Below, piece by piece: positions 2,433-3,482 of a DNA stretch of 64,000 bases. The notes under the pieces are model-generated. The model searched no databases. It was given only the letters and a program-made list of their open reading frames with translations, and was not told where the DNA came from. Position 1 is the first letter of the stretch. The number at the start of each line of letters is the position of its first letter. A program made the translations under genes and the position numbers. Source of the stretch: Desulfobulbaceae bacterium (GTDB taxonomy: Bacteria; Desulfobacterota; Desulfobulbia; Desulfobulbales; Desulfobulbaceae); contig JAABTP010000004.1 in assembly GCA_011389815.1 (NCBI GenBank), positions 1 to 64,000 on the forward strand, written 5' to 3'.

Positions 2433-2789
2433 CTATTCCTCCGGCTCCTCCTTCTTCTTCCCCCGCTTAATCTCACTGGTACGGGTGCCACCCGCCATTT
2501 CGTACTCGCTGCTGTCCTTGCCGTACTTGACGCCCACCCCGGCCAGCATCCGACCGGACTTGGTGCCGAGTTTTTTCTCCCGGTCGTTCAGCTCATTGAG
2601 TAATGCGTCGGCCTGGGCAAGCAGGGTATTGTACTGCTCCAGAGTGCTTTGCACCTCGGCGATCTCGTCCTCAAAGGCAGCGACCGTGAGGCCGTTGCCC
2701 AAATCCAGGTTCGGATCAATAGCCTTCAGGTTGGTGGCGCGTTCCTTTGCTTCGGCGATGACTTGTGATGATCTGCGTTTGTAGGCCAT
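2433..2789 (-). CDS. Hypothetical basic/charged 118-residue protein
   Basis: I chose ATG at 2789 because AGGAGGAAATCTC sits directly before it. The product begins MAYKRRSSQVIAEAKERA, has a long central helix rich in Glu/Gln/Leu (likely coiled coil), and ends with a TRTSEIKRGKKK basic tail. No catalytic motif is visible. The frame stays open upstream and is continuous with a heptad-repeat region up to 3185 except for one TGA at 3078-3080. The gene may therefore once have been the C-terminal part of a longer protein, or simply lie downstream of a decayed one. I do not recognise a named family. Confidence 0.55.
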   Translation of the reverse strand: MAYKRRSSQVIAEAKERATNLKAIDPNLDLGNGLTVAAFEDEIAEVQSTLEQYNTLLAQADALLNELNDREKKLGTKSGRMLAGVGVKYGKDSSEYEMAGGTRTSEIKRGKKKEEPEE

Positions 2790-2840
2790 GAGATTTCCTC
2801 CTGAAAAAATGGGTTTATCTTTGCCGTCACGGCGGTTGCG

Positions 2841-3185
2841 CATGTCCGGCAGCTGTTCCGGGATGTTCAATGTCTCATTTTGTACACCCCGGATGACGTT
2901 TCGTATATCCGGGAACACGTTCGGAACATCCTGAATCTCATCTCGGACGTTCAGAATGACGTTTTGGATGTGCAGAATTTCTTCCCGAACATCCGGGATC
3001 TCGTTTCGGACATTCAGAACCGCGTTTCGGATGTACGAGATCTCGTTTGGAACCTCCGTAATCTCGTCCCGGATATTTCAGATAAGGCTTTGTATCTCCG
3101 AAATCTTGATCAGGACATCCTCAACGAGGATTGGAACATCCAGAGGCTCGTTCTGATCATCCAGATTATTATTTCGTGTAGACAT
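2841..3185 (-). repeat. 21-nt periodic heptad-repeat region, coding-like, one in-frame TGA
   Basis: The minus strand from ATG at 3185 (preceded by AGAGGTG) encodes a tandem heptad pattern of the type NVRNEIP-DVREEIL-HIQNVIL, at least ten units with a 21-nt period. A TGA at 3078-3080 ends the first ORF after 35 residues (3078-3185). The same frame then continues uninterrupted into the gene at 2433-2789. The TGA sits where other units have Ser, Thr, Leu or Pro, so a TCA-to-TGA change is the simplest origin. The plus strand over the same stretch also encodes a heptad pattern, with only a TTG start, which follows from the near-palindromic unit. Confidence 0.55.
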
Positions 3186-3482
3186 GAGCACCTCTGAACG
3201 TTATGAATGGAGAGTGAAAAGATGCAGAGGTACTTTGGCAAGCTCTGTCATGCAAATCGGTTGTTTCAACCTTTGATCATAACAACATTCTCTGTTATCA
3301 GGAAAAAGTCAAGCGGAAAATTAAAGCAAAACAGACAGATAAATGAGATTGATAATCATTGCCGTTGTCTTGTGGCGATTCCATCCGCATCGAAACAGGT
3401 ACGGTGGGATTACTTTGCAGCACCTCCCGACCTTTTTTTGCCTGCTTGTGCAGAGGCTGATCTCTTGGTATAGTTGCCCATT

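Follow-up and report, generated by a model that had tools for sequence, protein, structure and literature searches.

A 21-bp-periodic, quasi-palindromic repeat array lies upstream of a small helical-protein gene family in Desulfobulbaceae and other bacterial groups

The stretch of DNA analysed here, referred to as the window, comprised 64,000 nucleotides of contig JAABTP010000004.1 from a Desulfobulbaceae bacterium (assembly GCA_011389815.1), whose genome amounted to 4.0 Mb in 233 contigs. The strongest periodicity of the window came from a repeat on the minus strand, with self-match values of 0.577 at lag 21, 0.614 at lag 42 and 0.651 at lag 63. Windowed self-match at lag 21 was 0.577 at position ~2867 and did not exceed 0.413 elsewhere in the 64 kb. 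TRF described the repeat with a period of 63 nt, 3.0 copies and a score of 174. The repeat is far above chance expectation. Read from 3185 to 2433, the minus strand started with MSTRNNN, ran through heptads to a TGA at 3080-3078 and then continued as an open frame into an ORF of 118 codons, exactly as the initial annotation had described. The similar heptad on the plus strand was also present as claimed, in an ORF at 2880-3197, and it exists because the repeat unit is quasi-palindromic. Self-complementarity of the window array (L001) was 0.72 compared to a mean of 0.38 in permuted columns (p 0.004).

Table 1. Features identified at the repeat locus, in window positions.
Feature	Position	Strand	Basis
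118-codon ORF	ATG 2789-2787, stop 2435-2433	minus	ORF listing
Cassette gene for the conserved helical 118-aa protein	2433..2789	minus	ORF, family alignment, purifying selection, AF2 model
Shine-Dalgarno AGGAGG of the 118-aa gene	2797..2802	minus	by reading; GGAG core invariant in 10 aligned loci, window not among them
21-bp-periodic quasi-palindromic repeat array, ~14 units	2862..3162 (approx.)	minus	autocorrelation, unit table, dyad symmetry
Possible leader ORF MSTRNNN..., 35 codons, ending at TGA 3080-3078	3078..3185	minus	G002 and G004 orthologs share the start, C43 paralog has lost it
TTGACT hexamer before the array, tentatively -35-like	3307..3312	minus	by reading; present in C43
Unit common to the window and paralog G000:C43	2437..3365	minus	87% over 937 alignment columns

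In the group of the window, the array ended ~70 nt before the ATG of the 118-aa gene, and it may be transcribed. No good -10 was seen by reading for the TTGACT hexamer. The homology between the window and C43 extended as far as the final codons of the 118-aa gene and ended there. Between this gene and the next one, an inverted repeat was noticed by eye at 2128-2160 and 2338-2357 (CAATACCTTCGCCATTC ... GAATGGCGAAGGTATTG). Positions 360-2090 of the minus strand encoded a 576-aa secreted-looking protein with a domain similar to the C-terminal domain of squalene-hopene cyclase, which scored 32.9 bits with a cut-off of 26.1.

The 118-aa protein was aligned with its homologs, 20 sequences showing invariant columns around IDPxLDLG and EYxxAGGxRxS. 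An AF2 model from seven sequences predicted helices at 9-24 and 36-89, with a mean pLDDT of 88.8 and a pTM of 0.58. Family libraries held nothing credible: the best value in Pfam was 0.062, NCBIfam gave none at E <= 1 and the best PHROG match, at 0.0045, was a family of unknown function. The designed ankyrin repeat protein 6mol_A was found in the PDB sequence search with a whole-sequence E of 3.1e-12, but no single stretch passed and the match was taken as a repeat artefact; the remaining rows had E 0.28 or more. The best matches of the model in fold searches were E 4.9 in the PDB and E 1.4 in BFVD, with none at E <= 0.001. Viral contigs yielded 64 pattern matches, none of them a relative, and the plasmid search for the family returned one record, Kovacikia minuta pA. 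The family gene was rare. It was present in 11 of 96 relatives, in 9 of 298 and 12 of 286 genomes of two further sets, and in one of 395 genomes sampled phylum-wide, namely the window genome itself.

The initial annotation had interpreted the heptads as a protein-coding repeat gene interrupted by the TGA. Such a gene, coiled-coil-like and either degenerating or phase-variable, with the TGA as a nonsense mutation or read through, would be in line with several WIN-type arrays (C34, C43, C204 and the G004 ortholog) having no stop in the frame. It would also be in line with the SD-like GAGGTG before ATG 3185 and the MSTRNNN start common to three orthologs. Codon changes argue against it. Between the window and its sister species G002, the 81 codons after the TGA differed at 8, 8 and 9 bases by codon position (pS 0.158, pN 0.086), compared to 3, 3 and 13 in the 118-aa gene (pS 0.170, pN 0.018). 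Amino-acid-changing codons after the TGA numbered 15, with 16.5 +- 2.2 in the neutral simulation, while the 118-aa gene had three, with 11.7 +- 1.8 simulated. In the comparison with G004, 16 codons of the post-TGA heptads were changed (17.6 expected) and 14 of the 118-aa gene (32.9 expected). The post-TGA codons therefore changed as neutral DNA does, whereas the 118-aa gene, judged by its codon changes, is under strong purifying selection. Codon-position bias was absent at p 0.05 from all nine array pairs (chi2, lowest p 0.067) and from both orphan-array pairs (p 0.465 and 0.568). The family gene showed it in eight of nine pairs, the ninth pair having one difference.

The composition of the repeat pointed in the same direction. 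The WIN-type unit consensus was nnGGAYRTYCnnAACGAGnTT (184 units), and the third base of its codon 1 was G in 162 units while the amino acid varied. A 21-nt period by itself keeps any stop-free frame open. Upstream arrays of other subfamilies differed in sequence and carried stops in the frame, and stops occurred in all six frames of L042 and L049. Since the heptad frame of the G004 ortholog ended at its own stop before the 118-aa gene, the frame shared by heptads and gene in the window does not argue for a single fused gene. A coiled-coil heptad protein was rejected, as amino-acid purifying selection and third-position bias were both missing in the array, and the more general case of a degenerating or phase-variable heptad gene is very improbable. 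The 35 codons before the TGA were less changed than neutral (5 compared to 10.2 expected in the simulation, P 0.001), which speaks for a heptad gene, though the changes were clustered in few codons. From their codon changes, these 35 codons possibly represent a short translated leader ORF.

The TGA is not special, and both it and the heptads would simply follow from 21 nt being seven codons. It was also present in G002. The frame of the G004 ortholog lacked the TGA, and an 84-nt block of the array was missing there. In other arrays, the heptad frame was broken by different stops, contrary to a coding constraint. Two in-frame stops were found in G004b and several each in G006 and G007b; C129 had TAA where its ortholog has CAA, and in C206, G002_C1a and C173 the 21-nt repeat continued beyond an in-frame TAA. 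Because SelB is encoded in the genome (match at G000:C75, 381.5 bits with a cut-off of 242.25), the machinery alone does not speak against selenocysteine. A SECIS-like hairpin was looked for just after the TGA and no stable one was found directly behind it (z -0.77 for 61 nt, +0.42 for 41 nt). The 91-nt stretch after the TGA had a fold z of -2.06, as the inverted symmetry of the array would give. Despite SelB, a selenoprotein or programmed readthrough was rejected, as both the adjacent hairpin and a post-TGA protein constraint were lacking. Of the initial interpretation, the heptad gene broken by a TGA, readthrough and selenocysteine were not supported. Its suggestion that selection could act on the DNA repeat itself was supported.

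What had been missed initially is that the repeat forms part of a widespread cassette. The cassette consists of a 21-bp-periodic array followed by a gene of the 118-aa family and recurs across several bacterial groups. It was duplicated inside the window genome, with a paralogous copy at G000:C43. A first check in cable bacteria and near relatives gave upstream lag-21 values of 0.43-0.90 for 23 of 23 genes, with a shuffled maximum of 0.39. It covered 26 loci, three of which repeated a gene already included under a different id, and five further loci missed by the motif of this check were looked at later. The profile search had 124 matches. Once those with fewer than 60 model positions and duplicates were dropped, 52 distinct genes remained among the matches listed and with a locus returned; they include many orthologs or paralogs and are not 52 independent events. 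Lags of 10-60 were scanned, and an array was called when the best lag was 21 or 42 with a score >= 0.5. Such arrays were present upstream of 40 of the 52 genes and downstream of 0 of 52. In the control, none of the 593 overlapping segments of the window qualified. Regardless of score, the best lag was 21 or 42 upstream of 47 genes, downstream of two and in 8% of null segments. L102 was cut at a contig end and gave no valid test; it is within the 47 and outside the 40. The 12 genes under 0.5 were L100, L161, L102, L178, L179, L180, L059, L043, L012, L184, L185 and L168. At other loci of the window genome, five of 39 segments had a best lag of 21 or 42, all at 0.39-0.44.

Strong arrays were located beside genes of the cable-bacterium genus and of genus g10 of the same family. 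They were also present in genomes from the classes to which an Anaerolineales MAG and a Verrucomicrobia MAG belong, and beside two genes of the plasmid pA of the cyanobacterium Kovacikia minuta. At L156 of this plasmid, a second array with period 41 (0.80) was found at ~3942, downstream of the gene. The family gene L052 in the same-genus genome G001 behaved identically to L099, named Ca. Electrothrix gigas, which makes a Candidatus Electrothrix, a cable bacterium, the probable source of the window. WIN-type arrays without a family gene of >60 model positions in the fetched flanks occurred at 11 loci (L064-L067, L103-L109). A conserved 5' segment before the array was common to six orphans, C206, C173, G002_C1a, G006, G007a and G007b.

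Unit sequences of the arrays differed by subfamily. Distances between arrays correlated with distances between proteins (Mantel r 0.63, p 0.0005, 31 loci), a correlation also expected from shared descent or co-inheritance. Column permutation identified 30 of 46 arrays as palindromic at p <= 0.05 and 26 at <= 0.01; the other 16 showed no significant palindromy, and arrays related to each other do not count as independent cases. As a general rule, a YR step at the dyad was dismissed, since it held only for the WIN, L003 and L140 types. Differences among L003-type arrays were almost only transitions, with transition-to-transversion counts of 28:2, 27:5, 31:2 and 28:3, compared to 11:8, 15:12, 1:0 and 17:16 in the gene. 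CpG mutability was rejected as the cause, as CpG sites were not consistently the most changed. L048 and L040 differed at one of 340 aligned bases of the gene and at 33 of 264 of the array (31 transitions), and their upstream DNA looked unrelated.

The arrays could act as RNA, either as a leader or as a separate transcript, whose palindromic repeats would fold into consecutive hairpins recognised by the 118-aa protein or by some other partner. When the first 250 nt of each array were folded and compared to 20 shuffles, the sense strand reached z -2 or lower in 37 of 46, and the array was close before the gene in the group of the window and at L009. The transitions in L003-type arrays would be tolerable to G-U pairs. 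A leader RNA would also suit the lone Rfam match in 11 loci, similar to the c-di-GMP-I riboswitch (L009:2445-2367, minus strand, 54.9 bits, below the gathering score of 65.9), which was located upstream of the array and of a distant family member, outside the array. However, the antisense strand folded equally (36 of 46). RNAalifold energies for four L003-type arrays were alike on both strands (-62.3 sense, -64.8 antisense), with two and zero doubly changed pairs, respectively. Helix mismatches were G-T in 31 and A-C in 25 cases without strand preference, so that G-T was not favoured. The arrays themselves had no Rfam match at E <= 0.1 in the 11 loci. An invariant TTGACA was located between array and gene in 10 aligned loci, placing the array upstream of the likely promoter. 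Strand-symmetric folds, scant covariation and similar G-T and A-C counts favour inverted symmetry of DNA over RNA, and a role as RNA is considered unlikely.

A lack of any function, with the arrays as neutral minisatellites or mobile-element remains travelling with the gene by chance, was also considered. Copy number shifted by whole units: the largest gaps between related arrays were 21, 42, 63 and 82-84, although smaller gaps of 1-17 also occurred. Duplication of the cassette within the genome, the existence of orphan arrays and the lower conservation of window-group arrays compared to their flanks (0.87 and 0.97) would all be compatible with neutrality. Against it, L003-type arrays were more conserved than their flanks (0.88-0.91 compared to 0.68-0.77, with 0.91 and 0.72 for the L003 group). 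Placement was upstream only, and the same 21-bp period was kept in distant lineages with unrelated units, which is not like random minisatellites. Functionless arrays are thus rather improbable.

The array recurs upstream of the gene across distant bacteria, is not read as a heptad protein and varies by subfamily with the protein. We infer that double-stranded DNA is the unit of selection. With slightly better than even chances, the locus is a two-part cassette in which a non-coding 21-bp quasi-palindromic array provides double-stranded DNA sites next to the gene of a small helical protein. As 21 bp correspond to two helical turns, all dyads would point to the same side of the DNA. A single protein, in the simplest case the product of the cassette itself, could occupy neighbouring dyads as dimers, and the resulting nucleoprotein array might control the cassette, perhaps its copying or segregation. 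Counter-evidence to DNA binding is that the protein has no known DNA-binding fold, its model matching nothing in the PDB or among viral models at E <= 0.001. Counter-evidence to DNA sites comes from the non-palindromic arrays (16 of 46), the genes below 0.5 (12 of 52), the 11 WIN-type arrays without gene and the window-group arrays that are less conserved than their flanks.

Several known systems share parts of this arrangement. In Rep-iteron systems of plasmid origins, direct repeats about two helical turns long adjoin a protein gene, as they do in the cassette. The 118-aa protein differs in having no Rep-family match in Pfam, NCBIfam or PHROGs; the cassette copies are chromosomal and multiple, and binding is putative. 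Par systems (parC/ParR, omega/heptad sites) have centromeres made of phased repeats in front of the gene of a small protein; the cassette is alike in this, and autoregulation is possible. Par operons also include an NTPase (ParA, ParM or TubZ). Reading by eye the flanking ORFs listed for 23 loci, we noticed neither a partner similar to ParA or ParM nor any other constant partner gene. REP/RAYT elements comprise palindromic repeats in solo copies and in copies beside a gene, all of which the cassette has in common with them; its gene had no transposase match in the libraries and its arrays keep a regular 21-bp phase. In form, the arrangement resembles iteron or par arrays, but neither the family searches with the 118-aa protein nor the flanking ORFs read by eye showed a defining partner of those systems. 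Large sulfur bacteria of the Beggiatoaceae have abundant intergenic TAACTGA direct repeats, according to the beginning of an abstract (PMC4679880), which does not mention a linked small gene. That repeat is a 7-base unit of one sequence (PMC4679880), whereas the cassette arrays have 21 bp and many sequences. Titles and abstract beginnings of the open-licence PMC literature contained no description of such an array and gene cassette, and the passages of PMC10580974 and PMC10926707 in open-licence PMC text did not mention 21-bp arrays. The cassette might represent an undescribed class of element, a diversifying 21-bp palindromic array, phased at two helical turns and inherited together with a dedicated small helical protein. 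Every cassette would then have an array sequence of its own and a protein variant to match, and the element would spread by duplication and leave solo arrays. For this reading we see somewhat less than an even chance.

If the cassette reading is right, a conserved array-plus-protein module has been overlooked, since its repeats pass for short ORFs of low complexity and its gene for an isolated hypothetical protein. As a caution, 21-nt DNA repeats, being seven codons long, can mimic heptad-repeat genes with in-frame stops. The module is present in cable bacteria, which are multicellular, in genomes of Anaerolineae and Verrucomicrobia type and on a plasmid of a filamentous cyanobacterium. The cassette offers a clean, testable pair of one small protein and its putative sites.
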